40,700 nucleotides of DNA, taken from Acetobacteraceae bacterium. GTDB taxonomy: Bacteria; Pseudomonadota; Alphaproteobacteria; Acetobacterales; Acetobacteraceae. The notes below the pieces were generated by a model. The model did no database searches and was not told the DNA's origin. It saw nothing but the letters and a program-made list of their open reading frames with translations. Location of the stretch: NCBI GenBank assembly GCA_003137135.1, contig PLFB01000129.1, positions 43,707 to 84,406 of the forward strand, given 5' to 3'. Every line of letters starts with the position of its first letter. Position 1 is the stretch's first letter. Position numbers and translations under genes: made by a program. Shown here one piece after another: positions 11,474 through 35,594 of this stretch.

Positions 11474-12408
11474 GCTGGCAGCCAGCGCGCCAGCGCCGCA
11501 ATGATTTGCCGCATCGCCGCCTGGCTTTGCGGGTGGTCCGGCGACCTGGTGATGAAGCCATGCGCCATGCCGGGATAGCATATGCTGGTCGCCTCAACCC
11601 CTGCCGCGCGCAGCTTTGCGCCGTATGCCATCCCTTCATCGCGCAGCGGGTCGCACCCGGCGGTCAGGATCAAAGCAGGAGGTAGGGCGCGCAGATCGGC
11701 TTCGTGTAGAGGGGCGACGAGAGGGTTGCGCGGGTGAATGCCCGCCGGCAGGTACTGGGGTAGGAACCAGGCCATCATCCGCGCGGTCAGCAATGGCCCT
11801 TCAGCGTTTTCGCTGTAGGAGGGCTGGGACATACTCGTGTCGCAAATCGGGTAGGCGAGGAGCAGAAATTTGATTGTGGGACCGTCGCGGTCGCGCGCCA
11901 GAAGGGTCACGGCGGCGGCAAGGTTGCCGCCCGCGCTGGACCCGCTAATGCCGATGCCGCCCGGATTGGCGCCGATCTCAGCACCTTGCGCTTGCAGCCA
12001 GAGCAGTGCCGCGTAGGCATCTTCCAGGCCGGCCGGAAATTTATGCTCCGGCGCCAGGCGGTACGCCACTGACACGATGACGATATCGGCCCGCCGGCAG
12101 GTCGCATGGCAGCGCGCGTCGTCATTGCCGATCGAACCGCCCACCCAGCCGCCGCCATGCAGGTGCAGCAAAACATTGTGAACGCCTGAAGCGGCCGGGC
12201 GATAGACGCGGACCGGGATAGGATGGCCCTGCGGCCCGGGAATAGCCCGGTCCTCAACCAATGCCGCCTCGCCGGGCGGCGGCGTGTAGGGCGGTCTTTT
12301 CGGGCGCAGAATCGCCAGCGCCTCGGCCAGCGGCAATTCATCGAGTTTTGGCGCGTTCAGCGTCCCTTCTGCCCGAAATTGCGCTTCCTGAAGCGGGTCA
12401 AGCCGCAT
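11470..12408 (-). CDS. Alpha/beta hydrolase, hormone-sensitive-lipase family esterase or lactonase
   Basis: 312 residues from the ATG at 12408, which overlaps the end of the flavoprotein gene by 11 bases; the open frame goes further upstream but that start gives the normal family N-terminus. The HSL oxyanion motif HGGG is at residues 84-87 (HLHGGGWVGG). The nucleophile is Ser158 in GSSAGG, where the usual form is GDSAGG. The acid is Asp253 (GCDPLRDEG) and the base His283 (GMAHGF). Coupling to a Baeyer-Villiger-type monooxygenase suggests it hydrolyses the lactone or ester made by that enzyme, as in cyclohexanone- and terpene-degradation clusters. The family call is firm; the lactonase role is inferred from context. 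Confidence 0.92.
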   Translation of the reverse strand: MRLDPLQEAQFRAEGTLNAPKLDELPLAEALAILRPKRPPYTPPPGEAALVEDRAIPGPQGHPIPVRVYRPAASGVHNVLLHLHGGGWVGGSIGNDDARCHATCRRADIVIVSVAYRLAPEHKFPAGLEDAYAALLWLQAQGAEIGANPGGIGISGSSAGGNLAAAVTLLARDRDGPTIKFLLLAYPICDTSMSQPSYSENAEGPLLTARMMAWFLPQYLPAGIHPRNPLVAPLHEADLRALPPALILTAGCDPLRDEGMAYGAKLRAAGVEATSICYPGMAHGFITRSPDHPQSQAAMRQIIAALARWLPA

Positions 12409-14047
12409 CGCCGTCCGCTCGTCCGAAGGCAAAACCCTCATAGCCGCCGTCAGCGACGGCGCGACAAATTTCAGTATAGCGGTCCAGCCCGCCCACGTAG
12501 GGCATGAAGACCCGCGAGCCGTCATCCTGGTTGACATGCACCATGTAGTTTTTCACGCCGAGCCGCAGGAGCTTGGAAGCGGCTTCGGCAACGGATTTTG
12601 TCCAGGCCGCCTGCGCCGCAGGCTCGGGTTCTACGGTGGAAAAACCATTTTCCTGCGTATGGGCGATCAGGCCGGCGGTGAAGTTCACATGCTCCTCGTT
12701 CATCAGCACCATATTGGCGAGCACCGAGGGGCTGCCGGGGCCGGTGAGTATAAACAGGTTCTTGAAGCCGCATGTCATCAGGCCGAGCATCGTGCGGGGC
12801 CCGCGATCCCAGTGCGCCGTCGGCGTTTCGCCACGCTCGTTGCGGATATCCACCTGGTCGAGCGCGCCTCGAAAGGCGTGGAAGCCGATCGCAAAAACGA
12901 TCAGGTCAACCTCGTAATGCGCTGTTTCGGTCTGAATCCCGGTTTCGGTGATGCGCCGGATGGGATCGCCGCCGATATCCACCAGCGTGACATTTTCGCG
13001 GTTATAGGTGGCGTAATAATCGGTATCCACGCAGAGCCTGCGCGACCCAATCGGGTGGTCATACGGGCAAAGCCGCTCCGCGACTTCCGGGTCCTTGACG
13101 ATGTTGCGGATTTTGCCGCGCACAAAATCCGCAACCGCGTCGTTGACCTGCTGGTCAATCCCCTGGTCGGCAAAAACGCGGTTCATGCCCTGGCCGCCCA
13201 GCGCCCATTGCCGCTCCAGCCGGTCCTGCCGCTCCGCCGCGCTATATGCGGCAAACGGCAAAGCCGGTCCCAGATTGCTGGAGATCGCGGCCCGTGTCTG
13301 CAGCAAGGCGCGCCGCCGCCCCGGCACATCGGCTGCGGCTTCGCGGCATTTGCCGGCATCGAGCGGCCCATTGCGGGCCGGCACTGAAAAATTGGGCGAA
13401 CGCTGAAACACGGTGAGGTGGCTGGCCTGTTCGGCCAGAACCGGGATGGCCTGCACGCCGGTCGAACCGGTGCCGATGACCGCGATGCGCCGCCCGGCGA
13501 GCGTCACCGGCCGCTCCGGCCAGTGCGAGGCCTGCACCCATTCGCCCTTGAATGCGGCCAGCCCCGGAAAATCCGGCGCCCGCGCGGCGGAAAGATTGCC
13601 GGTGGCCATCACCAGAAAACGGCAGCTCAACTGCAGCCCGGTACTGGTTTCCACCGTATAGCGCGCCGCCTCAGGCAGCCATTGGGCGCGGCTGAGTGCG
13701 GTTTCGAACAGGATTTTGCGCCGCAGATCGAAGCGTTCGGCCACATGGTTCAGATAGGCCAGGAGTTCGGGCTGGCCTGCATAGCGCTCCGTCCAGTTCC
13801 AGTCCTGATAGAGCTCCGGCGAGAAAAAATAGCAATAATCGAGGCTTTCCACGTCCACGCGGGCGCCGGGATAGCGGTTATGAAACCACACGCCACCGAC
13901 GCCGGATGCCTGCTCCAGCCCCAGAACGGATAGCCCCAGCTGGCTGAAGCGGTACAGCGCGTACAGGCCGCCAAGCCCGGCGCCGACGACGATCACGTCA
14001 TAGGCGGTCTGGCGGCTTGTTTGCGTGTCTGTGGCCTGGGCTGACAT
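12398..14047 (-). CDS. FAD-dependent Baeyer-Villiger-type monooxygenase (CHMO-like) with variant fingerprint
   Basis: 549 residues. Two Rossmann motifs are present: GAGLGG (residues 22-27) for FAD and GTGSTG for NADPH. The Baeyer-Villiger fingerprint lies between them as FKGEWVQASHWP (166-177); the position normally held by His is Gln172, though a His occurs three residues later. The segment around HPIGSRRLCVDTDYY and NRENVTLVD is typical of cyclohexanone-monooxygenase-like enzymes. The start is the ATG at 14047 with GGAG just upstream; a TTG 15 bases earlier is less likely. It should convert a ketone to an ester or lactone with NADPH and oxygen. It is coupled to the esterase that follows. 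The Gln may alter activity or substrate range. Confidence 0.91.
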   Translation of the reverse strand: MSAQATDTQTSRQTAYDVIVVGAGLGGLYALYRFSQLGLSVLGLEQASGVGGVWFHNRYPGARVDVESLDYCYFFSPELYQDWNWTERYAGQPELLAYLNHVAERFDLRRKILFETALSRAQWLPEAARYTVETSTGLQLSCRFLVMATGNLSAARAPDFPGLAAFKGEWVQASHWPERPVTLAGRRIAVIGTGSTGVQAIPVLAEQASHLTVFQRSPNFSVPARNGPLDAGKCREAAADVPGRRRALLQTRAAISSNLGPALPFAAYSAAERQDRLERQWALGGQGMNRVFADQGIDQQVNDAVADFVRGKIRNIVKDPEVAERLCPYDHPIGSRRLCVDTDYYATYNRENVTLVDIGGDPIRRITETGIQTETAHYEVDLIVFAIGFHAFRGALDQVDIRNERGETPTAHWDRGPRTMLGLMTCGFKNLFILTGPGSPSVLANMVLMNEEHVNFTAGLIAHTQENGFSTVEPEPAAQAAWTKSVAEAASKLLRLGVKNYMVHVNQDDGSRVFMPYVGGLDRYTEICRAVADGGYEGFAFGRADGDAA

Positions 14048-14215
14048 GAATCTCCGGTCCAAGAACCGCCTGGATAATCATCGTGCCGGAACCAGCCTAG
14101 CCCGCACAGCTGCTGCGGCAGGCTATTATTTGTTATCCGCCGATGAGAACTGGTCGTTTGACGGGACGCGCGGCGCGGCCTCGTTTGCCCACTACGCATC
14201 GAAAAGGGGAAGCGA

Positions 14216-14666: not shown

Positions 14667-15485
14667 ATGTTTATATCTCCCCTTCCCGAGACCAGGATTG
14701 TCGCGGGCCAGCAGGTTGAAATCCTGATCCGCGGCAAAGGCCAGCCGATTCTGTTCCTCCATGCCGGCCACGGCTTTGAGCCGGATGATCCGCTGGTTAC
14801 CGCGCTTTCGAAGCATTATCGGGTTTACGCGCCGTCGCATCCGGGGTTTGGCGCCTCTGACAGGCCAGATTATGTCAACAGCGTCGAAGACCTCGTTTTC
14901 TTCTATCTCGATCTCATCGAACAGCTGAATTTGCGCGATCTGATCGTGGTCGGCGTTTCATTCGGCGGTTGGCTGGCGGCGGAGCTGGCCACGCGCGGCA
15001 CCGGGCGGATCGCCAAGCTGGTGCTGATTGACGCGGTAGGCGTGAAATTCTCCGGCCGCGAGACGCGCGATATCGTCGATATCTTCTCGACCACGATCGA
15101 GGAAATTCCCAGCCTGTTCTTTAATGATCCGGCGACGGGGCTAAAAACCTTCGGCGGTCTGGACTTTCAGAGCATGACCCTCGAATCCGCGACCCGATTC
15201 GCCCGCAACCGGGAATCCATACTTCTCTTCGGCTGGTCGCCTACGCTTTATAACCCGAAATTGTTGCGCCGGTTGCACCGGGTGCATGTACCGGTGCTCG
15301 TGCTGTGGGGTGGGTCCGACAAGGTGGTCTCGACCAGCTACGGCAAGCAGTACGCCGCAGCTTTCGAGCACGGCGTGTACCGGGAAGTGCCGGCGGCCGG
15401 ACATTACGGATATCTCGAAAAACCGGCTGAATTCGCCGCCGAAGTGATCGGTTTTCTCGAAACAAAATCGCCGGCCGCACTCTAG
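14667..15485 (+). CDS. Alpha/beta hydrolase (MhpC/epoxide-hydrolase-like fold)
   Basis: 272 residues. The triad is visible: nucleophile Ser98 in GVSFGG, acid Asp218 in WGGSDKVV, and base His246 in AAGHYGYLEKP. The oxyanion region is LHAGHG. A Ser nucleophile argues for an ester, lactone or C-C bond hydrolase rather than an epoxide hydrolase or dehalogenase, which use Asp. GAGGT lies 8 bases before the ATG. It is first in an operon with two luciferase-like monooxygenases (21 bases to the next gene) and is preceded by the 12-base repeat element. It may open a lactone made by those enzymes, or cleave a ring-fission product. The substrate is unknown. Confidence 0.9.
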   Translation: MFISPLPETRIVAGQQVEILIRGKGQPILFLHAGHGFEPDDPLVTALSKHYRVYAPSHPGFGASDRPDYVNSVEDLVFFYLDLIEQLNLRDLIVVGVSFGGWLAAELATRGTGRIAKLVLIDAVGVKFSGRETRDIVDIFSTTIEEIPSLFFNDPATGLKTFGGLDFQSMTLESATRFARNRESILLFGWSPTLYNPKLLRRLHRVHVPVLVLWGGSDKVVSTSYGKQYAAAFEHGVYREVPAAGHYGYLEKPAEFAAEVIGFLETKSPAAL

Positions 15486-15506: not shown

Positions 15507-16685
15507 ATGGAATTCTGGCATTTCTGCGAACAATCGATGCATCCGGCATGGGACAAAATTGATGGTCCCACCAAGGTGCTGGTCGATAACCGTTTCTGCG
15601 ACCCTGAAGTCGCTCACAAGCTCTACAACCGTTATCTCGACGAATGGGTGATCGCCGATCAGCTCGGCTTCAATATTTTCGTAAATGAACACCATGCTTC
15701 GGCGAACTGCATGTCGGCGTCCTGCCTGCTGACCTTGGCGATTCTGGCGCGGCAGACGAAGAACGCCCGGCTGCTATGCCTGGGTGTGCCCGTCACAAAC
15801 CGTACCGACCCGTACCGTGTTGCCGAAGAACTGGCGATGATCGACGTGATTTCCGGGGGGCGGCTGGAGATCGGCCTGGTGAAAGCCTCGCCGTTCGAAC
15901 TTGCGATGTCAAACCAGAGCCCGGCGCGGATCATGGATCGCTACTGGGAGGCGCATGATTTCATTGTCAAGGCGCTGACCCATCAGGGTGCGCCGTTCAG
16001 CTGGGAAGGTGAGTTTTATAACTACCGTAACGTGAATGTCTGGCCGCGTCCCTTCCAGCAGCCGATGCCGCCGATGTGGATTACCGCATCCGGGCCGACG
16101 ACCGGGCGCAAGATCGCGCAGCTCGGCTATGTCATGGCCACGTTCTTCAACGGCGCCGGCACCAAGCCATTATACGACGCCTACAAGGATGAGTACCGCA
16201 AGACGCATGGCAAGCCGGCGCCGATCGACCGCTTCGCCTATCTCGCAATGGTCGTCTGCGGCCGGACCGAGGCTGAGGTGCAGGAGCGGGTGGAGAAGGT
16301 AAAGCCTTACCTGGAAGTGCAGCCGCGCACGCCAAAGGCCTGGTCAAACCCGCCGGGCTACGAGAATGTCGAAATGAACGCGCGTGCGCTGAATTCCGGC
16401 GTTACCGGGCGGATCAATTTCGGCCTGCCGGCCAACCCGACGCTCGCGGAAATGGCCGAAGGCGGCATTCTGTTCGCCGGCACGCCGGACCAGCTTTACG
16501 AGCAGATGGTGAAGTTCAGCGACCGTTGCGGCGGCATTGGCCGGATGCTGATGCTCAGCCAGGCGGGCTATCTCTCGCATGACGAAACCGTCGATACCAT
16601 GCAGCTGTTTGCAGCCGAGGTGGCGCCGCGTCTGCGCGAATATGCGCGGGCGAAAAATGAGGAAATTGTGCAAGCGGCGGAGTGA
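15507..16685 (+). CDS. Luciferase-like (LLM) flavin-dependent monooxygenase
   Basis: 392 residues. The TIM-barrel luciferase-like fold is shown by NIFVNEHHASANCMSAS, then RVAEELAMIDVISGGRLEIG and GILFAGTPDQLYEQMV near the C-terminus. AAGGAG precedes the ATG at 15507. The family oxidises aldehydes, ketones, terpenes and other small molecules with FMNH2 or, in some lineages, F420. It lies between an alpha/beta hydrolase and a second LLM gene. Diketocamphane monooxygenases, the type II Baeyer-Villiger enzymes of camphor degradation, belong to this superfamily, so a ketone-to-lactone role beside a hydrolase is attractive but unproven. No matching reductase is present. Confidence 0.91.
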   Translation: MEFWHFCEQSMHPAWDKIDGPTKVLVDNRFCDPEVAHKLYNRYLDEWVIADQLGFNIFVNEHHASANCMSASCLLTLAILARQTKNARLLCLGVPVTNRTDPYRVAEELAMIDVISGGRLEIGLVKASPFELAMSNQSPARIMDRYWEAHDFIVKALTHQGAPFSWEGEFYNYRNVNVWPRPFQQPMPPMWITASGPTTGRKIAQLGYVMATFFNGAGTKPLYDAYKDEYRKTHGKPAPIDRFAYLAMVVCGRTEAEVQERVEKVKPYLEVQPRTPKAWSNPPGYENVEMNARALNSGVTGRINFGLPANPTLAEMAEGGILFAGTPDQLYEQMVKFSDRCGGIGRMLMLSQAGYLSHDETVDTMQLFAAEVAPRLREYARAKNEEIVQAAE

Positions 16686-16786
16686 ACGTAGCCGAACCGC
16701 AGATGGTTGGCCAAAGATTGTGTTTCATGCCAGAGGGATGAAAACCGATGCTGTTAAAAGTTGAAAATGGTCCTGAGGAGAGCGTC

Positions 16787-17986
16787 ATGTCACAGATCAA
16801 GCTACGTCATGGTGTGTTTGTCGCACCTCTCCACCCGGTTGACGAAGATGCGAATTCGGTGATCCATCGCGACCTCGAACTGATGGAGTGGCTCGACAAG
16901 CTCGGCTATGACGAAGCCTGGATCGGCGAGCATCATTCCGGCGGATGGGAGACCATTTCGTCTCCAGAACTTTTTATCGCCGCCGCGGCGGAGCGAACCC
17001 GCCAGATAAAATTCGGCACCGGCGTAATTTCGCTGCCCTATCATCAGCCTTTGATGGTGGCTAACCGCATCATCCAGCTCGACCACCAGACCCGCGGCCG
17101 GGTGATGTTCGGATTTGGTCCTGGGCTGCTGGTATCGGATGCCGAAATGCTGGGGATCGAGCCGCATACTCAGCGCGACCGCATGGCGCAATCGCTGGAC
17201 GTCATCCTGCGGCTGCTGGCGGGTGAGACAGTAACCGAAAAGACTGAATGGTATGAGCTGAGAAACGCGCAGGTGCATCTTCTGCCCTATTCGCGGCCGC
17301 GGCCCGAAATTGCGGTGGCGAGCGCGGCAACGCCTTCGGGCGGCAAGCTGGCCGGCAAATATAATCTTTCCATGCTCTGCGTCGCCGCGACGGACCCGAG
17401 CGGCGGCTATAATGTTCTCGATATCAACTGGAATTTTGCCTTGGAGACGGCCAAGGAATTTGGCAACACGCTGAGTCGTTCGAACCTTCGGCTGATGGGG
17501 CCGATGCATATCGCCGAGACGCGCGCGCAGGCGCGGGAGAATGTGCGCTGGGGATTGCATAAGTACATCGAATACGCCCGCACGATCACGCCCGGCCGAT
17601 TCGGGGATTTTGGCGACCGCGACCCGGTGGATGTGATGCTCGATGCCGGACATGTCGTCATCGGCACGCCGGATGACGCGGTCGAGGTTTTGAAGAAGCT
17701 GCAAGCCAAGCAGGGCGAATTCGGAGCTTTCCTGCATCAGGCGCATGACTGGGCGAACTGGGAGAACACGAAGCGCTCTTACGAATTGTATATTCGGTAT
17801 GTTGCGCCGCATTTTAACGGCACGAATGCGAACCGTGAAAAATCCTATGACGACTGGAAGGAAAACTCGGTCGCCTACAGCTCAAAAATGGGTGCTGCTG
17901 CCAAGGCGACGCTGGAGAAATACGGCGCGACTGCCGGATTGGAAGCCGGGCGCAAGACCGGGATGATCGGCGCCAAAGCCGGGTGA
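16787..17986 (+). CDS. Luciferase-like flavin-dependent monooxygenase, limonene-monooxygenase-like
   Basis: 399 residues from the ATG at 16787, which has GAGGAG just upstream; an in-frame ATG at 16748 has no such site. The sequence HGVFVAPLHPVDED, then LGYDEAWIGEHHSGGWE and GRVMFGFGPGLLVSDAEMLG, follows the group commonly annotated as limonene 1,2-monooxygenase. The C-terminal region has WENTKRSYELYIRYVAPHFN. It presumably epoxidises or hydroxylates a terpene-like substrate with reduced flavin. It is third in the run hydrolase-LLM-LLM, 101 bases after the second gene. If it makes an epoxide, the two epoxide hydrolases at 33-35.6 kb are logical next enzymes. Substrate assignment is by resemblance only. 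Confidence 0.91.
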   Translation: MSQIKLRHGVFVAPLHPVDEDANSVIHRDLELMEWLDKLGYDEAWIGEHHSGGWETISSPELFIAAAAERTRQIKFGTGVISLPYHQPLMVANRIIQLDHQTRGRVMFGFGPGLLVSDAEMLGIEPHTQRDRMAQSLDVILRLLAGETVTEKTEWYELRNAQVHLLPYSRPRPEIAVASAATPSGGKLAGKYNLSMLCVAATDPSGGYNVLDINWNFALETAKEFGNTLSRSNLRLMGPMHIAETRAQARENVRWGLHKYIEYARTITPGRFGDFGDRDPVDVMLDAGHVVIGTPDDAVEVLKKLQAKQGEFGAFLHQAHDWANWENTKRSYELYIRYVAPHFNGTNANREKSYDDWKENSVAYSSKMGAAAKATLEKYGATAGLEAGRKTGMIGAKAG

Positions 17987-18192: not shown

Positions 18193-19371
18193 ATGATGAA
18201 GCAAAAGACTGACAGGCAGCGCCAAGCATGCCGGTTGCGCCTGCGCATGCCGGGCGTGATATTGCCGCTGCTCGCTGGCATTGCCCCGGCGGCGTTGATG
18301 ACATGGTCTGCGCCGTGCGTGGCAGCGCCCACGAATGCCGCATCATTCGACAGTGATCCTTTGGTGGCGCCGTCCATCGCGGTTTTGCATCCTGACCAGG
18401 TTGTGCTTGAAACCGTGACCCTGGCCGGCCCGCGGCTTGTAGCCGGCGGCGAGCATGGCGTCATCATCGTCTCGGATGATTACGGCGCGCAATGGCGCCA
18501 GGTTTTTTCTCCCGTAGATGTAACAATTGATCAGATCAGATTTGCTGATGCACGGACCGGCTGGGCAGTTGGGGATTTTGGCGTCGTGCTGAAAACGCAG
18601 GATGGCGGGCTGACCTGGACCAAACAGCTGGACGGGGTGCAAGCCGCGAACTTGATGCTGATCAACGCCGAGGCGATCGCAGCGGCCAATCCAACCGACC
18701 CGGTGGCAGCGAAGCGGGTAAGACACGCCAAACTCTTTGTCAGCGACGGTCCCGACAAACCGTTTTTTCTTGTGCAGATTTTTGATGCGTTGCACCTGCG
18801 GATCTACGGCGCCTACGGCATGGCGTTCGAAACCCTTGATGGCGGCGCACATTGGGCGGATTGGAGCAGCCATATCACCGACCCTGGTCATCTGCATCCG
18901 TACGGTCTGGTCGAGACGGCCGGAACGATGATCTTTGCCGGCGAGCAAGGCATGCTGTTGAGCGGTCCGGCCGCCGGCCCGATTCAGCCGATGACCACGT
19001 CGCCTTATGACGGGAGCTTTTTTGGCATTCTCCAAACGCCAAGCGCCGGCCTTGTCGCCTATGGTCTGATGGGCAGTGTTTATGAAAGCCGGGACCAAGG
19101 TGCTACCTGGACGCAGGCAGTCAATCCATCATCATCAACGATCAATTGCGCCACTCTGAGCTTCGACGGTAAAATCCTGATCGGTGATTGGGATGGCAAT
19201 GTTTCGCAAGTTGAGGGCGCCAAGGTGGTGCCGACCGGCACGAATGCCGGATTTCCCATCTCTGATATGCTGGAGGCGCCGGATCAATCGCTCATCCTTG
19301 TCGGCATCAGCGGTGTGAAGCGCTTTCCGCCGGCTGTGTGGCGTGCCGCATTGACGGGACCCAAGAGCTGA
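18193..19371 (+). CDS. YCF48/BNR-like beta-propeller protein, exported
   Basis: 392 residues. The N-terminus has a basic stretch, a hydrophobic core (VILPLLAGIAPAALM) and a likely signal-peptidase site after CVAA, so the protein is probably periplasmic. The body has repeated propeller blades of the Asp-box/YCF48 kind: SDDYGAQWRQV, TQDGGLTWTKQ, LDGGAHWADW and SRDQGATWTQA. Such proteins bind or scaffold partners. Its stop overlaps the ATG of the MMPL transporter by one base (TGATG), so the two are coupled. The combination YCF48-MMPL-DUF1302-DUF1329 recurs in proteobacterial clusters for hydrophobic compounds; its molecular task is not settled. Confidence 0.85.
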   Translation: MMKQKTDRQRQACRLRLRMPGVILPLLAGIAPAALMTWSAPCVAAPTNAASFDSDPLVAPSIAVLHPDQVVLETVTLAGPRLVAGGEHGVIIVSDDYGAQWRQVFSPVDVTIDQIRFADARTGWAVGDFGVVLKTQDGGLTWTKQLDGVQAANLMLINAEAIAAANPTDPVAAKRVRHAKLFVSDGPDKPFFLVQIFDALHLRIYGAYGMAFETLDGGAHWADWSSHITDPGHLHPYGLVETAGTMIFAGEQGMLLSGPAAGPIQPMTTSPYDGSFFGILQTPSAGLVAYGLMGSVYESRDQGATWTQAVNPSSSTINCATLSFDGKILIGDWDGNVSQVEGAKVVPTGTNAGFPISDMLEAPDQSLILVGISGVKRFPPAVWRAALTGPKS

Positions 19372-21773
19372 TGGACGTCCAACTCGCACCACGGCCGGAA
19401 TCGGCCCGGCTTTCCGCAACGCGGCTAGAGGATTTTGACTATCAGTCCGGTTCGCTGGTTGAACGGCTGCTGTTCAACTGGCGCCCCGTCATTCTCGCCA
19501 TTTGCTTTGTCATCACAGCACTTCTCGGCTGGCAGGCCGTGCAGATACGCATCAACGCCAATTTTTTCGACGGCATTCCGACCAAGAATCCCTACATGGT
19601 CAATTTAATTGCGCATTATGATGACCTGTCGCAGCAAGGCAACACAGTCAGGATCATCGTCGAAGCCAATAGCGGCACGGTTCTGAACCCTCGCTATCTG
19701 CAAACGCTGCAGAACATCAACACGGAAGTTTCGCTGCTGCCGGGCGTTGATCGCGGCAACATGCTCTCGCTCTGGGCGCCGACTGTGCGATGGACGGCGG
19801 TAACGCAAGACGGGTTTGACGGCGGCACGGTGATACCGGATGATTACAACGGTTCAGCCGCCTCGATCCAGGCAGTTCAGAACAATCTCTTTCATTCCGG
19901 CCAGATCGGCAAGCTTGTCGCACCGGATTTCCGCTCGAGCGTGATTGTCGTGCCACTACGCGATGTGGTCGATGCGCGGGGTACGCCGATCAGCTATGGC
20001 GCGTTCTCGCGGCAGCTCGAAGACCTCCGCAAGAAATATGCGGCACAGGGTGTGACCATTCACATCACCGGGTTTGCGAAAGTCGTCGGCGACATCATCA
20101 ACGCGACGCCGGAGATTGCGCTGTTCTTCCTTGTGTCGATCATCATCACCGCGGGGTTCCTGTTTTCCTACACGCATTGCCTGCGCAGTACCTCGCTTGT
20201 CGTATTCTGCTCGCTGATTGCCGTCGTCTGGCAGCTCGGCCTGGTGGTGCTGCTCGGCTTCGAGCTTGACCCTTATACCGAGCTTGTGCCGTTCCTGATC
20301 TTTGCGATCGGCATGAGCCATGGCGCGCAGAAAATGAACGGCATCATGCAGGATATCGGCCGCGGGACACCCCGGCTAATCGCGGCACGCATGACCTTCC
20401 GCCGGCTTTTCATGGCGGGGTTTTCAGCACTGATCTGCGATGCCGTTGGCTTTGCGGTGTTGAGCATCATTCCCATCGTCTCGATCCAGCACCTCGCGAT
20501 CATCGCGAGCCTTGGGGTGTCGATCCTGATTTTCACCAATCTGATCCTGCTGCCAATCTTTCTCAGCTACACAGGTGTAAAAGCCTCGGCTGCGCAGCGG
20601 GCATTGCATGCGGAGGAGCGCGCCTCTATCGGCACGCATTTTCTCTGGGACATTCTCGGCAAGCTTACGGCAAGGCGCTGGGCCATCGCGGCAATCGCCG
20701 TGGCCGTCCTGCTTGCGGGCATCGGCTATAAGGTGAGCGAGAACTTGCAGGTTGGCGACCTCGGCCGGGGCGCGCCCGAACTGCGCGCGAATTCGCCCTA
20801 TAACCAGGATAATGCCTACGCCACCACGCATTACGGCGCGAGCACGGATGTGTTCGTGGTAATGTTCACCTCACCCCCTGGCCAGTGCACTGCGTACGCC
20901 ATGCTGCGCACGATGGACCAGGTGGAATGGGCGGCATCGCAGGTGCCTGGCGTCGTCTCCACCGAATCACTGGCAGCGGCCGCGCGCTATCTGATGATTG
21001 AGATCAACGAGCAGAATTTCAAATGGTTCGATTTGCCCAGGAACCAGTATTCGCTCGATTCCGTAACGGCGACCGGAACAATGGGGTTGTCCAATGACAG
21101 TTGCACGCTCAACCCCCTGCTGATCTACCTAAGCGACCACAAGGCCGGCACGCTGCTGCGCCTTACATCGCGGCTGAAAACCACGATGGCAATGATCTCA
21201 CCGCCGGCCGGAACGCAAATTTTATTGGCCGGCGGCAGTGCGGGCATCGCGGCGGCGACGAACGACACGGTCAAATCCGCGCTCAATCAAATGTTATTCT
21301 GGGTATATGGGGCGGTAACACTGCTGTGCCTCATCGCGTTCCGGTCCTGGCGCGCGGTGCTTTGCGCAATTTTGCCCCTTATCCTGACATCCATTCTCGC
21401 CGAGGCGCTGATGGTCGCACTTGGGATCGGCGTGAAAGTGGCGACCTTGCCGGTGGTTGCCCTCGGTGTCGGCATCGGCGTCGATTACGCCCTGTATGTG
21501 CTCTCCATCGTTCTGGCGCGGCTGCGCGCTGGCGAATCGCTTTACAGCGCCTACCGGCAATCTTTGATGTTTACCGGCCGCGTTGTGCTGCTCACGGGCT
21601 TCACGCTTGCCACAAGTGTCGCGATGTGGGTGTTCTCGCCGATCAAATTCCAGGCGGATATGGGGCTGTTGCTGTCGTTCATGTTCATCTGGAACATGAT
21701 CGGCGCGCTGGTTCTGCTGCCGGCGCTCGCTCATTTTCTGCTGAAGCCAGCGGCAGCAAGACGTTACGGATGA
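19371..21773 (+). CDS. MMPL/RND-superfamily transporter (HAE3-like)
   Basis: 800 residues with the RND layout: one helix near residues 36-58 (ILAICFVITALLGW), a large periplasmic loop, a cluster of helices from about 245 to 400, a second single helix (WAIAAIAVAVLLAGIGYKV), a second loop, and a C-terminal helix cluster ending LVLLPALAHFLL. The GVGIGVDYALYVLS segment with its Asp is the family's proton-relay region in the second half. The start at 19371 overlaps the YCF48 stop; an in-frame GTG at 19338 would lie inside that gene. Family members move lipids, hopanoids or other lipophiles between inner membrane and periplasm. With the neighbouring envelope genes it probably handles uptake or export of the pathway substrate. 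Confidence 0.92.
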   Translation: MDVQLAPRPESARLSATRLEDFDYQSGSLVERLLFNWRPVILAICFVITALLGWQAVQIRINANFFDGIPTKNPYMVNLIAHYDDLSQQGNTVRIIVEANSGTVLNPRYLQTLQNINTEVSLLPGVDRGNMLSLWAPTVRWTAVTQDGFDGGTVIPDDYNGSAASIQAVQNNLFHSGQIGKLVAPDFRSSVIVVPLRDVVDARGTPISYGAFSRQLEDLRKKYAAQGVTIHITGFAKVVGDIINATPEIALFFLVSIIITAGFLFSYTHCLRSTSLVVFCSLIAVVWQLGLVVLLGFELDPYTELVPFLIFAIGMSHGAQKMNGIMQDIGRGTPRLIAARMTFRRLFMAGFSALICDAVGFAVLSIIPIVSIQHLAIIASLGVSILIFTNLILLPIFLSYTGVKASAAQRALHAEERASIGTHFLWDILGKLTARRWAIAAIAVAVLLAGIGYKVSENLQVGDLGRGAPELRANSPYNQDNAYATTHYGASTDVFVVMFTSPPGQCTAYAMLRTMDQVEWAASQVPGVVSTESLAAAARYLMIEINEQNFKWFDLPRNQYSLDSVTATGTMGLSNDSCTLNPLLIYLSDHKAGTLLRLTSRLKTTMAMISPPAGTQILLAGGSAGIAAATNDTVKSALNQMLFWVYGAVTLLCLIAFRSWRAVLCAILPLILTSILAEALMVALGIGVKVATLPVVALGVGIGVDYALYVLSIVLARLRAGESLYSAYRQSLMFTGRVVLLTGFTLATSVAMWVFSPIKFQADMGLLLSFMFIWNMIGALVLLPALAHFLLKPAAARRYG

Positions 21774-21887
21774 CTTCCAGTCATGGCGTCCGGTCCAAAT
21801 TTCCATTTGCGTAAATAGCAAATCAACCCGTAGAAAAAGGCTCACGATTCACAAATAAGAATTCGGTTTTTGGGGACGATAAAAGCA

Positions 21888-23564
21888 ATGAAACAAAATC
21901 ACCAGTCTTTTGCAGCGAAGCTTTCGTATCGCGCCCGCCGCGCCCGGTTTTTGAAGCGCTCTCTGCTCGCCAGCGCCACGGGGCTTGCATTCACGGCATT
22001 CGGCGGGCAGCGGGCTTCAGCGTTTCCGATTTCCACGCCCGTTCCGGGCCTTACCATCACCCTGGACAATACGGTGGAGGTCAACATCCTCGGCCGCACC
22101 GAGCAGAGCAGCCCGGATTCGTTCGACAATCCCAACGGGGATGATGTCGCGCAGAATTTCCGGCATTTCCTCTCGGCGGAGCGTATCGATCTGGATAGCG
22201 GCCTAGACGTGAAATACGATAATTTCGGCTTGCGCATTTCCGGCGCGGCCTGGGAAGATTTTAGCTACGACCAGAACAACAGCAACGCGTCGCCCGGCAC
22301 GATCAACTACAATAGCAGCAAATCAGACTCTTTCTCGCGCGCGGCCGACGGTCTGGCGGGCCACCGCGTCGAGCTTGATGATGCGTTCACCTTCGGGTCA
22401 TTTGGCATTGGCGATTCCACCTTGTCCTACCGTGCCGGCCAGTTCGTGCAAATCTATGGGCAGAGCCTGCTGCTGGCGGCGGAGGGCATTGGCGGCGTGA
22501 TGAACCCGATCGACGGCATCCGCGCGCAGATTTTGCTGAACCCGCAATCGCGCGACATTTTCATGCCGACCCCGCAAATTTCGGTTGTGGAACAGCTCTC
22601 CAACGGCCTCGCCTTCAGCGGCTATTACAAGCTCGGCTGGCGGGCGACAAGAATTCCGCCCTCTGGCTCGTATTTCAGCCCCTCCGATCTGTATGGCCCT
22701 GGTGCGACGAAACTTTTCCTCGGCGGCGGCGCGTTTTTCGGCCGCCAGAACGATATCCGGCCCAATGGCGGCGACAAGCAGTTTGGTGTCCAGATCCAGG
22801 ACAGTTTTTTCAACGACGATTTCGCCCTGCACTTCGTTAATTTCGATGCTTATGCACCCGAGGTCTATATCCACCCCGGCGCCGGCTTCAATCCATTGAC
22901 GGGACAGGTCGGCACTTATCAGTTCGTCTATCCGCGGGATGCGCAGTTGTTCGGCGCGAGCTTCTCCGCGAGCCCGACCTTCGGATCCTACCCGGTAAAC
23001 TTCGGCGTCGAAATCTCCGAGCGGCATCACGAAGGCCTCGTCACGAGTGGCAGCGTGGCGCCATCGGCCGCCAGCAACCAGAGCAATGTGTTTTATCCGG
23101 TTGGCGATGTGGCCCACGGCCTGGTTTCTTTCATCTATGCCTCGCCGCCGCTGCCAATGATCCGCTCCGACCAAGCCTCGGTGACCGCCGAATTCGGCGC
23201 CAGCAAGCTGCTTTCGGTATTCGAGAACAAGGCCAATCTCTACGCCAAGACCGAGGGTCTGGCGGTGGATGGGACGATTGACCTTGGCCTCAGCTACTTT
23301 GACATCTATCCGGCGGTCGACATGGCGCCGGCACTCGGCATTTCCTATGCCCCGCTCGGCAACTCCCCAGAAGGCTATTTCGTGCATGGCGGTGGATCAT
23401 TGTCGCTGGCCGATACGTTCACTTTGAACAAGGTCTATAATCTCACCATCCAGTACCGGCACTATGTCGGCACCTTGAAGAGCACGCTGGGTGGCGCCTC
23501 CGATCCAAGCCAGACATTATACGGCAAGGACTTCATCGGGCTAGAAGCCGATACCTCATTCTAA
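21888..23564 (+). CDS. DUF1302 family outer-membrane protein
   Basis: 558 residues. A long basic N-region precedes a signal peptide (SLLASATGLAFTAFGG) with likely cleavage after RASA. The mature part is rich in alternating strands, Gly and aromatic residues, has GQFVQIYGQSLLL and NPIDGIRAQILL, which fit the DUF1302 style, and ends in Phe as outer-membrane beta-barrels do. I start at the ATG at 21888; the frame continues 18 bases upstream. DUF1302 proteins are usually paired with DUF1329, as here. Likely roles are a channel for, or a binding barrel of, a hydrophobic compound at the outer membrane. The domain call rests on pattern recognition and gene order. Confidence 0.87.
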   Translation: MKQNHQSFAAKLSYRARRARFLKRSLLASATGLAFTAFGGQRASAFPISTPVPGLTITLDNTVEVNILGRTEQSSPDSFDNPNGDDVAQNFRHFLSAERIDLDSGLDVKYDNFGLRISGAAWEDFSYDQNNSNASPGTINYNSSKSDSFSRAADGLAGHRVELDDAFTFGSFGIGDSTLSYRAGQFVQIYGQSLLLAAEGIGGVMNPIDGIRAQILLNPQSRDIFMPTPQISVVEQLSNGLAFSGYYKLGWRATRIPPSGSYFSPSDLYGPGATKLFLGGGAFFGRQNDIRPNGGDKQFGVQIQDSFFNDDFALHFVNFDAYAPEVYIHPGAGFNPLTGQVGTYQFVYPRDAQLFGASFSASPTFGSYPVNFGVEISERHHEGLVTSGSVAPSAASNQSNVFYPVGDVAHGLVSFIYASPPLPMIRSDQASVTAEFGASKLLSVFENKANLYAKTEGLAVDGTIDLGLSYFDIYPAVDMAPALGISYAPLGNSPEGYFVHGGGSLSLADTFTLNKVYNLTIQYRHYVGTLKSTLGGASDPSQTLYGKDFIGLEADTSF

Positions 23565-23679
23565 CGGTCTGAATAGTGAAATCAGGTCATCTTGATATTC
23601 TAAAATATTGGGTCCTGGTTCGGGGAAAAATTGGATAGAAACGGCGTTGAGTCGCGAAAACGAAGATGGGAAAGCGTCA

Positions 23680-25038
23680 ATGAAACTTAAACTCACTCTC
23701 TTGGCCGCCACCGCCAGTATGCTGGCATATCAGCCGTCACCGGCGCGCGCACAGGTCACGGCGGCGCAGGCCGCACAGCTTGGCACTACGCTCACGCCGC
23801 TCGGCGCGGAAATGGCAGGTAATGCCGATGGCAGCATTCCCGCCTGGACTGGCGGCGTCTGCACGATGAACCTGGCCAGCGGCGATAACGGCAACATCCC
23901 GCCAGTGTTCGCCAACGAACAGAAGCTATTCACGATCGATGCGTCTAATGTCAGCAAGTATGCCGATAAGCTAACCCCGGGCGAGATCAAAATGATCACC
24001 ACGTTCCAGGGTTTTCACATGGATGTGTACCCGACGCACCGCACCGGCTGCGCGCCGCAATGGGTTTACGATAATGTTAAAAAGAACGCGCTTACATCCT
24101 ACATGAAGGGTGACTATCCGTTTGGATTTGCTGGCGGCATTCCGTTCCCTATTCCGCAGAATGGCGAGGAGATCGTCTGGAACAGCAATACCGCATGGGC
24201 CGGCCAGGATACGTCCGACGAGGTCAGCAACTATATCGTGCCGTTCAACCATTCGCCCATTTTGACCTCCACTACCTATGTCACCTATTTCAAGGATCTT
24301 TATCAGCCGGGCGTCACGACCGCCAATTATGACGGGATTTATACCCGCGACGAAAGCCAGGTCTCGGCGCCCGCAAACCGCGTCGGCGAAGTATACGATT
24401 CTTTCCAGCCGACATCGACACCGCCGCTCGATTATCGCGTCTGGGAGTATCTGGTCGGCCAGCGCCGGCTGCGTCTTGCACCAAATATCGGCTACGACGG
24501 CGCCTATCCCGATTGCGGCGGTCTCATGGATGCTGATGAAATCTACGTGTTCAACAACAAGCCGGACCATTACGACTGGAAACTTCTGGGCAAAAAAGAA
24601 ATCTACGTTCCCTATAACGAGAACGGGGCCTCTCTGCTGCCGGACACCAGCCAGCTGCTCGGGCCACAATTCCTGAATCCGGACCATATACGTTGGGAGC
24701 TTCACAGGGTCTGGGTCGTTGACGCCACGGTGCGTTCCGGCTTTCGCAATTTGATCGCGCACCGGACAGTCTATGCCGATGAGGACACATGGAGCTTCGT
24801 TCTCGCGGATGAATATGACAGCGCGGGAAATCTGGTGAAGTTCAACTCCATCCTGCCGATGGTCGACCCCGCGATTCCCGCCGTGCCCTTTATCACGACG
24901 GCGCTGTATGACCTTCACGGCGGCGGCTACTGCATGTTCCAGCTTCCTGTCGGCCCCAACCAATGGATCCTGAAAAACTCGGACAAACCCGTATCCGCAT
25001 TCGATCCGCAGCAGATCGTCAACAGCGCTGCGGATTGA
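23680..25038 (+). CDS. DUF1329 family periplasmic/outer-membrane-associated protein
   Basis: 452 residues from the ATG at 23680; the frame is open 72 bases further up but only this start gives a proper signal peptide (MKLKLTLLAATASMLAYQ, cleavage after ARA). The mature protein begins with LGTTLTPLGAEMAGNADGSI, a common DUF1329 opening, followed by IPAWTGG. Later landmarks are YPFGFAGGIPFPIPQNGEE and RTVYADEDTWSFVLADEYD. DUF1329 has a LolB/LppX-like fold thought to bind lipidic ligands, and the gene nearly always sits beside DUF1302. It ends the YCF48-MMPL-DUF1302-DUF1329 block. It probably shuttles a lipophilic ligand through the periplasm; the ligand is unknown. Confidence 0.9.
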   Translation: MKLKLTLLAATASMLAYQPSPARAQVTAAQAAQLGTTLTPLGAEMAGNADGSIPAWTGGVCTMNLASGDNGNIPPVFANEQKLFTIDASNVSKYADKLTPGEIKMITTFQGFHMDVYPTHRTGCAPQWVYDNVKKNALTSYMKGDYPFGFAGGIPFPIPQNGEEIVWNSNTAWAGQDTSDEVSNYIVPFNHSPILTSTTYVTYFKDLYQPGVTTANYDGIYTRDESQVSAPANRVGEVYDSFQPTSTPPLDYRVWEYLVGQRRLRLAPNIGYDGAYPDCGGLMDADEIYVFNNKPDHYDWKLLGKKEIYVPYNENGASLLPDTSQLLGPQFLNPDHIRWELHRVWVVDATVRSGFRNLIAHRTVYADEDTWSFVLADEYDSAGNLVKFNSILPMVDPAIPAVPFITTALYDLHGGGYCMFQLPVGPNQWILKNSDKPVSAFDPQQIVNSAAD

Positions 25039-25148
25039 TCCGAACAGGCGTGGCTACAGACCCCGCCTTCACCTGACCCAGCTTGACCGGCTTATTGATC
25101 CGGTGTTCCAGTTACTTTTCAAGCAAGCCTGCTCTGAAAACAAATAGA

Positions 25149-25173
25149 CCTGGACGATTCCACATCGTCCAGG
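25149..25173. terminator. Hairpin 1: 10-bp perfect stem, probable terminator
   Basis: CCTGGACGAT at 25149-25158 pairs perfectly with ATCGTCCAGG at 25164-25173 over a 5-base loop. A short T-containing run (AATTTCTT) follows on the plus strand. It lies 110 bases after the DUF1329 stop, between convergent genes, as expected for a transcription terminator. Confidence 0.6.
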
Positions 25174-25211
25174 CCTAATTTCTTGCGCAACTTGCATGGC
25201 TGTCGCGTTCT

Positions 25212-25250
25212 CGAAGGTCGTGATAAGTTTGTCACTCATCACGACCTTCG
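25212..25250. terminator. Hairpin 2: 13-bp perfect stem with T-rich tail
   Basis: CGAAGGTCGTGAT at 25212-25224 pairs with ATCACGACCTTCG at 25238-25250 over a 13-base loop. TCTCTTTT follows directly at 25251-25258, giving a good rho-independent terminator shape for plus-strand transcription. It is the strongest of three consecutive hairpins here. Confidence 0.62.
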
Positions 25251-25278: not shown

Positions 25279-25303
25279 AGGTGAATCGGCTCCCGATTCA
25301 CCT
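25279..25303. terminator. Hairpin 3: 11-bp perfect stem, 3-base loop
   Basis: AGGTGAATCGG at 25279-25289 pairs with CCGATTCACCT at 25293-25303 over a CTC loop. It lies 15 bases beyond the end of the minus-strand LysR gene and could terminate that transcript. No clear T-run follows on either side, so it might instead be an RNA stability or protein-binding structure. Confidence 0.5.
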
Positions 25304-33267: not shown

Positions 33268-34425
33268 CTACCGTAAGGCCCGGAAAAATTCGCGCAAATC
33301 CTGCACCAGAATTTCGGGCTCCTCCATCGGCACAAAATGCCCGCCGGTCTGCGCCACATTCCAGCGTTTCAAATTATAATACCGTTCCGCCCAGCGCCGT
33401 GGCAGCTTCACGATATCCTTCTCGAACAGCAACACCGCGGTGGGCGCCTCAACCACAGGCTGGCGGTCATGGGACGGTACCCACGGGTTGCGTTTGGCCT
33501 CCGCGTAAAACCGTGCCGAGGTGCCCATACTCTGCGTCACCCAGTACAAGGTCATCGTTGTACACAAATCATCCTTGCTGAAGCGCCGCTCAATCTCGCC
33601 ACCGCAATCACTCCAGCGCCGGCGTTTTTCCAGAATCCAGGCGCAAAGCCCAGCCGGCGAATCGTTCAGCCCATAGGCAAGGGTTTGCGGTTTCGTGCTC
33701 TGCAGGCGCGAATACGCGCTTTCCTGTTCCAAAAACGCCGCATTGCCGGCTGCCCAGCCCTCCTCGCCCGGCCCGAACATCGACGCATCGGGCATGTTGC
33801 CGCTGATCATGCCCAAAGGCCCGGCCAGGTGCACATGAACACCCAGCGTCTTCGCGGCGTACTTATGACCAAGCTGCGCGGTGACGAACGCGCCAAAATC
33901 CCCGCCCTGCGCCGCAAATTTTTCGTAACCCAGGCGCTGCATCAGGCTCACCCACATATCCGCCGTGCGCGAAAAATTCACGCCCGGCCTGGTCAGCGGC
34001 GTGGAAAATCCGAAGCCGGGCAGGGAGGGTATGATAACATCAAACGCGTCCGCCGCATCCCCGCCAAACGCAGCCGGGTCTGTCAACGGCCGAATCACTT
34101 TCTGCAAATCCCAGAACGTCCACGGCCAGCCATGCGACATGATCAGCGGCATCGGCTTCGGCCCGCGCCCGCGTTCATGGATGAAATGAATCGGCAGTTC
34201 GTCAATCACGGTCCGAAAATGCGAAAAGTCGTTCATCGCCCGCTCATGCATCCGCCAATCATAGTCTGCCGCCCAATATCGCAAAAGCTCCTGCAAATAA
34301 GCGCCGTTCGTGCCATACTCCCAGCCATCATTGCCAAAATCCGCCGCCAGCCGCGTGCGCCGCAACCGCGATTTCAAATCATCCAGCACCTCATCCGCAA
34401 TATCGATCCTGAACGGTTCGATCAT
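33268..34425 (-). CDS. Epoxide hydrolase (EHN-domain alpha/beta hydrolase), copy 1
   Basis: 385 residues. The N-terminal EHN-type region (residues 1-110) leads to the oxyanion motif HGWP at 98-101. The nucleophile is Asp176 in QGGDFGAF and the base His363 in GGHFVPMEEP. An Asp nucleophile marks it as an epoxide hydrolase rather than an esterase. It opens an epoxide to a vicinal diol. It starts 2 bases before the stop of a second related gene, so the two form a tandem paralogous pair. Upstream epoxidation could come from a luciferase-like or P450 enzyme in this window. Relatives include juvenile-hormone-type and microsomal epoxide hydrolases. Confidence 0.92.
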   Translation of the reverse strand: MIEPFRIDIADEVLDDLKSRLRRTRLAADFGNDGWEYGTNGAYLQELLRYWAADYDWRMHERAMNDFSHFRTVIDELPIHFIHERGRGPKPMPLIMSHGWPWTFWDLQKVIRPLTDPAAFGGDAADAFDVIIPSLPGFGFSTPLTRPGVNFSRTADMWVSLMQRLGYEKFAAQGGDFGAFVTAQLGHKYAAKTLGVHVHLAGPLGMISGNMPDASMFGPGEEGWAAGNAAFLEQESAYSRLQSTKPQTLAYGLNDSPAGLCAWILEKRRRWSDCGGEIERRFSKDDLCTTMTLYWVTQSMGTSARFYAEAKRNPWVPSHDRQPVVEAPTAVLLFEKDIVKLPRRWAERYYNLKRWNVAQTGGHFVPMEEPEILVQDLREFFRALR

Positions 34426-34427
34426 CG

Positions 34428-35594
34428 TCAGCGCCGGAACGGCCGGAAAAACGCCCTGATATCCTCGGCCAGCGCGCGCGGCTGTTCCATCGCCGCAAAA
34501 TGCCCGCCGCGTGGCATTTCCGTCCAGCGTTGCACATCATAAACCCGCTCCACCCATTCACGCGGCGGCACCGCAACTTCGCCGGGGAAGGAAGCAAATC
34601 CAAGCGGCGGCAGAATGCGTTCGCCGGCGCGAAACATCAGCGGCGTCGCCTGCGCCTCCTTGTAAAGCCGGATGGCGGAGGTAATCGTTTCCGTAAACCA
34701 ATAAACCGAAACATTCGTCAGCAACGCGTCCAGCGGAACCACCGATTCAATATCCCCGTCACAATCTGCAAGCATACGGAACTTATCAATCAGCCACGCC
34801 GCCAGCCCCACGGGCGAATCATTCAGCCCGTAGCCGAGCGTCTGCGGCCGCGACGCATGAATCCCGGTATGCGTACTCGCCCCATGCGCCGCCTGCGCCG
34901 CCATCCGCGCGCAAAACGCCATTTCTGCCTCCGTGAGCGCCGGGTCCGCCCCGCCCACCGGCGGCTGAAGCGAGCCGGGAATCCAATTCAAATGAATGCC
35001 GCTCACCCGCTCAGGGAATAATCTGGCCAGCCACGTCGAAACAGTCGCCCCCCAGTCACCGCCCTGCACCCCGTATGCCTGGTATCCCAGCCGCGCCATC
35101 AGCGCCGCATAAATCTCCGCCATGACCAGCGGTGTCATGCCCGGCGCCACCGGCCGGTCCGAAAACCCATAGCCCGGCATCGAAGGCACGATCACATCAA
35201 ACGCATCCCGCGCATCGCCGCCAAACCGCGCCGGATCGGCCAGCAGCGGCACAATGTCCAGCATCTCGACAAAGGATCCCGGCCAGCCATGCGAAATGAT
35301 CACCGGCATCGGCGCTGGCCCCACGCCCCGTTCATGAATGAAATGAATAGCCCCGCCGTTTATTTCAGTCTTGAACTGTGCCAGCCGGTTGATGCCCGCT
35401 TCCGCCGCGCGCCAGTTAAACCCCTCGCGCCAGTAATCCGTCATCCGCCGCAGCGTCGTCATGTCGGCGCCATAGGCCCAGGGTTCCGCCGCAAGCTCAT
35501 CCGGCCATCGCGCCGCCGTCAGCCGCCGGCGCAAATCGTCCAGCGAGGAGCCTTCAATATGGACGGAGAATGGCGTGACCGGGACGTGTTCCAT
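34428..35594 (-). CDS. Epoxide hydrolase (EHN-domain alpha/beta hydrolase), copy 2
   Basis: 388 residues, the first gene of the minus-strand operon of two epoxide hydrolases, a hydroxyacid dehydrogenase, an aldehyde dehydrogenase and an alcohol dehydrogenase. The oxyanion motif is HGWPGSF at 102-108, the nucleophile Asp180 in VQGGDWGA and the base His365 in GGHFAAMEQP. The GGDWG form is the more canonical of the two copies. Shared stretches with copy 1 (AIHFIHERG, GYGLNDSP) show they are paralogues, but they have diverged well beyond a recent duplication, suggesting different stereochemistry or substrates. Confidence 0.93.
   Translation of the reverse strand: MEHVPVTPFSVHIEGSSLDDLRRRLTAARWPDELAAEPWAYGADMTTLRRMTDYWREGFNWRAAEAGINRLAQFKTEINGGAIHFIHERGVGPAPMPVIISHGWPGSFVEMLDIVPLLADPARFGGDARDAFDVIVPSMPGYGFSDRPVAPGMTPLVMAEIYAALMARLGYQAYGVQGGDWGATVSTWLARLFPERVSGIHLNWIPGSLQPPVGGADPALTEAEMAFCARMAAQAAHGASTHTGIHASRPQTLGYGLNDSPVGLAAWLIDKFRMLADCDGDIESVVPLDALLTNVSVYWFTETITSAIRLYKEAQATPLMFRAGERILPPLGFASFPGEVAVPPREWVERVYDVQRWTEMPRGGHFAAMEQPRALAEDIRAFFRPFRR

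Follow-up and report, generated by a model that had tools for sequence, protein, structure and literature searches.

We find that positions 18193-25038 of the window, the 40,700-nucleotide stretch of Acetobacteraceae DNA analyzed here, encode a Ycf48-type beta-propeller (C), an HAE3/MMPL RND transporter (D), a DUF1302 barrel (A) and a DUF1329 LolA-fold protein (B) in that order, and that their sequences place this cassette among the AmeABCD-type four-part envelope systems, a kind already described. Sequence and fold establish the identity of the parts and their membership in the cassette. Our best explanation of the locus as a whole, to which we give about an even chance, is that such a system exports a hydrophobic compound and serves an apparently acquired catabolic island, with outward direction, cargo class and assembly all read from homologues only. 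How hydrophobic substrates and intermediates pass through the envelope of Gram-negative degraders is poorly understood, and for a system known from a handful of experiments the locus supplies an explicit catabolic setting and an infrequent order of genes; we take it as a good instance of a described but little-studied system, and not as a new one.

Architecture of the cassette and its four proteins

All four cassette ORFs lie where the initial annotation had placed them, on the forward strand behind three enzyme genes: an alpha/beta hydrolase that is first in the co-directional run (14667..15485; Pfam Abhydrolase_6, 7e-25) and two luciferase-like monooxygenases (LLM1, 15507..16685, Pfam Bac_luciferase, 1.2e-30; LLM2, 16748..17986, Bac_luciferase, 2.4e-39). 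The AmeC-like periplasmic propeller follows at 18193..19371 (PSII_BNR/Ycf48 PF14870, E 1.4e-11), the AmeD-like transporter at 19371..21773 (ORF 19338-21773; MMPL PF03176, 2.7e-19; TIGR00921 HAE3, 3e-31), the AmeA-like outer-membrane barrel at 21888..23564 (ORF 21870-23564; PF06980, 3.5e-76) and the AmeB-like periplasmic protein at 23680..25038 (ORF 23608-25038; PF07044, 7.3e-99), and these coordinates and Pfam matches confirm the order claimed for the seven genes. The true starts of D, A and B are likely the ATG codons at 19371, 21888 and 23680. The first of these overlaps the stop codon of C as TGATG, the usual sign of coupled translation. The signal peptides previously assigned to A, B and C are visible to us as signal-peptide-like N-termini, judged by hydropathy and by eye. 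A hairpin scan places a bidirectional terminator-like hairpin at 25142..25180, between the cassette and a convergent LysR gene, and it is followed in the same interval between the DUF1329 and LysR genes by two more at 25212-25250 and 25279-25303.

Protein A ends in Phe and is modeled by AF2 with about 18-19 long strands (mean pLDDT 85); its nearest folds in Foldseek are chitoporin, AlgE, Occ channels and general porins, and the TM-scores by query are modest (0.32-0.47). A FadL-like barrel was considered for A and rejected, as FadL is absent from the 50 best Foldseek matches. Protein B (mean pLDDT 90) matches members of the LolA superfamily, namely LolA3 (TM-score by target 0.83), the DUF1329 structure 4z48 (0.77), 3bk5 and 3buu, and we find no lipobox Cys in its N-terminal signal-like region, MKLKLTLLAATASMLAYQPSPARA-QVTA. 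Since the lipobox Cys is missing and the best solved relatives belong to the LolA superfamily, the label LolB-like given to B in the initial annotation should read LolA-like.

In the inner-membrane pair, C probably begins its mature part near residue 46, and its family profile matches solved Ycf48/HCF136 structures with E down to 1.4e-26. Protein D has two large loops between hydrophobic stretches, matching expectation for a twelve-helix RND protein, and is 49-58% identical to the RND proteins of the sister-genome and most plasmid cassettes. Its TM10 Asp-Tyr proton-relay motif (GVGIGVDYALY, 21483..21488, forward strand) is invariant in 108 aligned cassette RND sequences, and aligns with the VGVDF motif of HpnN and the DY motifs of MmpL5. 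The TM4 Ser-His motif (IGxSHG, 20316..20321, forward strand) is likewise invariant in the 108 sequences, a figure that is selection-biased for 80 named loci because one scan pattern used there contained SHG; Ser-His is also present in a 13-row alignment of sister and plasmid sequences fetched without that pattern. MmpL5 has Asp-Tyr in both halves; in the cassette RND proteins TM4 carries Ser-His and TM10 carries Asp-Tyr. When the N- and C-terminal halves of D were aligned as internal repeats, in order to pair the two motifs, nothing significant emerged, and we therefore make no claim that His replaces Asp. A search beside the RND gene for the membrane-fusion protein or TolC-type factor of an HAE1 tripartite pump found neither, the neighbors being Ycf48, DUF1302 and DUF1329.

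Related systems, gene order and ancestry

The four families encoded together in the window are those of AmeABCD of Castellaniella defragrans 65Phen, where a DUF1302 barrel, a DUF1329 LolA-superfamily protein, a COG4447/Ycf48-type protein and an HAE3 RND transporter lie beside hydrophobe-degradation genes (PMC6394551), a likeness drawn at the level of protein families. The A-B-C-D order of Ame is typical of such systems without defining them, whereas the window runs C-D-A-B, and Ame adjoins monoterpene ring-cleavage genes whereas the window cassette adjoins a hydrolase and LLM monooxygenases. Within the surveyed set of cassettes, the RND protein of the window belongs to one lineage with the other cassette RND proteins and shares its history with A, B and C. 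In Pseudomonas putida, DUF1302 and DUF1329 proteins act together with a periplasmic protein and an efflux transporter of RND type (PP_0765/PP_0766 and PP_2018/PP_2019) as two units, AB and CD, for which AlphaFold contacts suggested a strong C-D and weak A-B and B-D interactions (PMC10866462); there the units occupy two separate loci, whereas in the window they are adjacent and swapped. A benzene-degrading methanogenic enrichment expresses a related ORM2a 'Nanopod' cluster that also unites a porin-like protein, DUF1329, YCF48 and MMPL in a hydrocarbon degrader, but in a distant anaerobe and with extra universal-stress and hypothetical genes (PMC13101534), and Delftia nanopods contain DUF1302 and DUF1329 proteins (PMC3110197). 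The hopanoid transporter HpnN (PDB 5khn) is HAE3-type like D, but it works without the dedicated barrel, LolA-like and propeller partners (PMC6394551) that the window encodes, and D does not reach the NCBIfam equivalog cut-offs for HpnN (57.2 against 751.85 bits, and 23 against 1100).

We surveyed DUF1329 matches in 61 related genomes, 60 stretches cut from them, plasmid records and 80 named-genome loci; together these gave 148 distinct loci, each carrying one or more of the four families. All four occur in the order ABCD at 102 of the 148, bearing out the view that this family set recurs, and C lies directly before D, overlapping or abutting it, in most. Because loci were fetched by a B or D match and close strains were counted separately (the window itself enters the table twice, once as its own locus L037), these counts describe a sample and not independent events; the four-gene linkage is far beyond chance. 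The order CDAB is found at two surveyed loci only, the window and a plasmid of P. aeruginosa LYT4, while Vibrio alfacsensis has BACD. The source genome of the window carries four cassettes: the one described here, two complete ones in the order ABCD and a fourth truncated at a contig end.

Trees built with FastTree from 108 four-gene loci, for each of the four proteins singly, for AB and CD and for the combined set, agree on the position of the window: within or beside a single clade of 23-26 loci, almost all of which come from sister genomes, and on a long branch (0.6-1.2 substitutions per site). Between the four proteins, pairwise-identity matrices show correlations of 0.84-0.90, a range that shared species ancestry could partly produce. 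A mosaic origin of the swapped order was considered and is rejected, as the trees of the single proteins and those of the AB and CD pairs all put the window in or beside the sister-genome clade. As all four proteins fall in this same clade, the window cassette is, on these trees, a rotated one with an uncommon gene order.

The swapped order in the window, the separation of AB from CD in P. putida and an excess of B over D together suggest that AB and CD are separable, and gene order makes them look like two modules, which could be tested separately. Totals over 15 genomes of the genus, fragments included, are 47 A, 76 B, 42 C and 45 D; B outnumbers D in eight of the 15, a lead only, as the drafts are fragmented. 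We tentatively consider that the modules may be exchangeable, such that one inner-membrane engine (CD) would serve several outer-membrane AB, or B-alone, modules of differing substrate specificity. If true, this would explain the swapped order, the split P. putida loci and the genomes in which DUF1329 genes exceed RND genes. DUF1329 genes far outnumber RND genes in five sister genomes (G012, G014, G028, G033 and G035), with nine near full-length DUF1329 genes against three RND genes in G012, and several DUF1329 genes in these genomes adjoin BVMO or LLM genes.

Catabolic context and direction of transport

The gaps along the run from the hydrolase gene to the cassette are 21, 62 and 206 bp, and the last of these, before C, contains nothing resembling a terminator. 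GC content is 58.0% over 14.0-28.8 kb of the window versus 64.1% and 62.8% outside it, a modest contrast with a segmentation gain not reached in 100 shuffles of 1-kb blocks; within this segment lie the hydrolase gene, the two LLM genes, the cassette, LysR, an SDR and a P450. The genes of the segment look as if they were acquired together. In ten genomes of the genus, nine LLM genes (window locus excluded) lie within 10 kb of DUF1329 versus 3.7 expected (P ~0.014), as do four BVMO genes versus 1.1 expected (P ~0.026), in rough tests that assume uniform spread, include some orthologous pairs among the LLM loci and show modest enrichment. Gene order, shared low GC and this enrichment thus support the catabolic linkage that had been proposed. 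The attached oxygenase genes probably degrade a hydrophobic compound, and the enzymes taken by themselves would make an alicyclic or terpenoid-like compound a candidate substrate.

It may be instead that the cassette is as described and the upstream hydrolase and LLM genes are unrelated to it, and so uninformative on cargo, in keeping with the finding that no other surveyed cassette has a close homologue of LLM1 or the hydrolase beside it (phmmer, 1e-20). We regard this as unlikely, as the genes share a strand and one GC segment, and are separated by short gaps with no terminator-like site between, and LLM and BVMO genes recur near DUF1329 in sister genomes.

In the export mechanism that we favor, proton-driven D would extract a hydrophobic compound from the inner membrane, stabilized or gated by the translationally coupled periplasmic propeller C; the LolA fold of B would shield the compound in the periplasm, and barrel A would pass it through the outer membrane. 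The cassette would in this way serve an apparently acquired catabolic island composed of the hydrolase, the two LLM enzymes and probably also the P450 and SDR, and would hold the level of a lipophilic growth substrate, or of an intermediate that leaks, within tolerable limits. Characterized MmpL and HpnN relatives move their cargo outward. The same-composition cassette with the only direct experiment, Ame, also favors efflux or tolerance: deletion of all four genes at once gives poor growth on limonene and other non-functionalized monoterpenes but normal growth on acetate and perillyl alcohol, lowers monoterpene tolerance, and leads de-energized cells to accumulate slightly more Nile Red, a small effect (PMC6394551). 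On the strength of the Ame data and of these relatives, outward transport appears more likely than inward.

The same cassette could also work inward, with A taking up a lipophilic growth substrate, B crossing the periplasm with it, and the RND-propeller pair passing it on to the inner membrane, or across it, for use by the monooxygenases. We hold this to be quite possible though not probable: it is against such a route that the outward-moving relatives and the Ame deletion phenotypes of dye accumulation, tolerance and perillyl alcohol growth count, while all four P. putida homologues are essential on Tween 20 (PMC10866462), a phenotype that fits uptake and tolerance equally well. The families most often flanking the named-genome cassettes, MFS, LysR, SDR and acyl-CoA dehydrogenase (as raw counts), likewise accord with uptake, the benzene-culture study leaves the direction open (PMC13101534), and the nearest folds of A mix uptake porins with the exporter AlgE, which counts against an outward-only reading. 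Far less probable is a general role in envelope-lipid or outer-membrane maintenance with the catabolic genes as mere neighbors. A LolA-fold partner and the HAE3 relation to a hopanoid exporter would suit such a role, but DUF1329 is unmatched in 22 of 37 genus genomes searched, with 1-11 matches in the others (many of them drafts), plasmid-borne copies adjoin benzaldehyde dehydrogenase and aromatic-catabolism genes, and D lies far below the HpnN equivalog cut-off (57 of 752 bits). That a lipophilic compound is routed across the envelope, as the initial annotation had proposed, is well supported and is the reading already published for such cassettes (PMC6394551, PMC10866462, PMC13101534); of that interpretation overall, the envelope route and the catabolic linkage are supported, a terpenoid or steroid is at most a candidate cargo, and the LolB-like label falls.

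Elsewhere in the window, too, genes for oxygenases, dehydrogenases, epoxide hydrolases and CoA-type enzymes are abundant. A divergent flavin monooxygenase at 12398-14062 scores 231 of 1100 bits to the pentalenolactone D synthase PtlE, well below cut-off, and two epoxide hydrolases lie in tandem at 33268-35594; together these genes fit the catabolism of cyclic terpenoid-like compounds.
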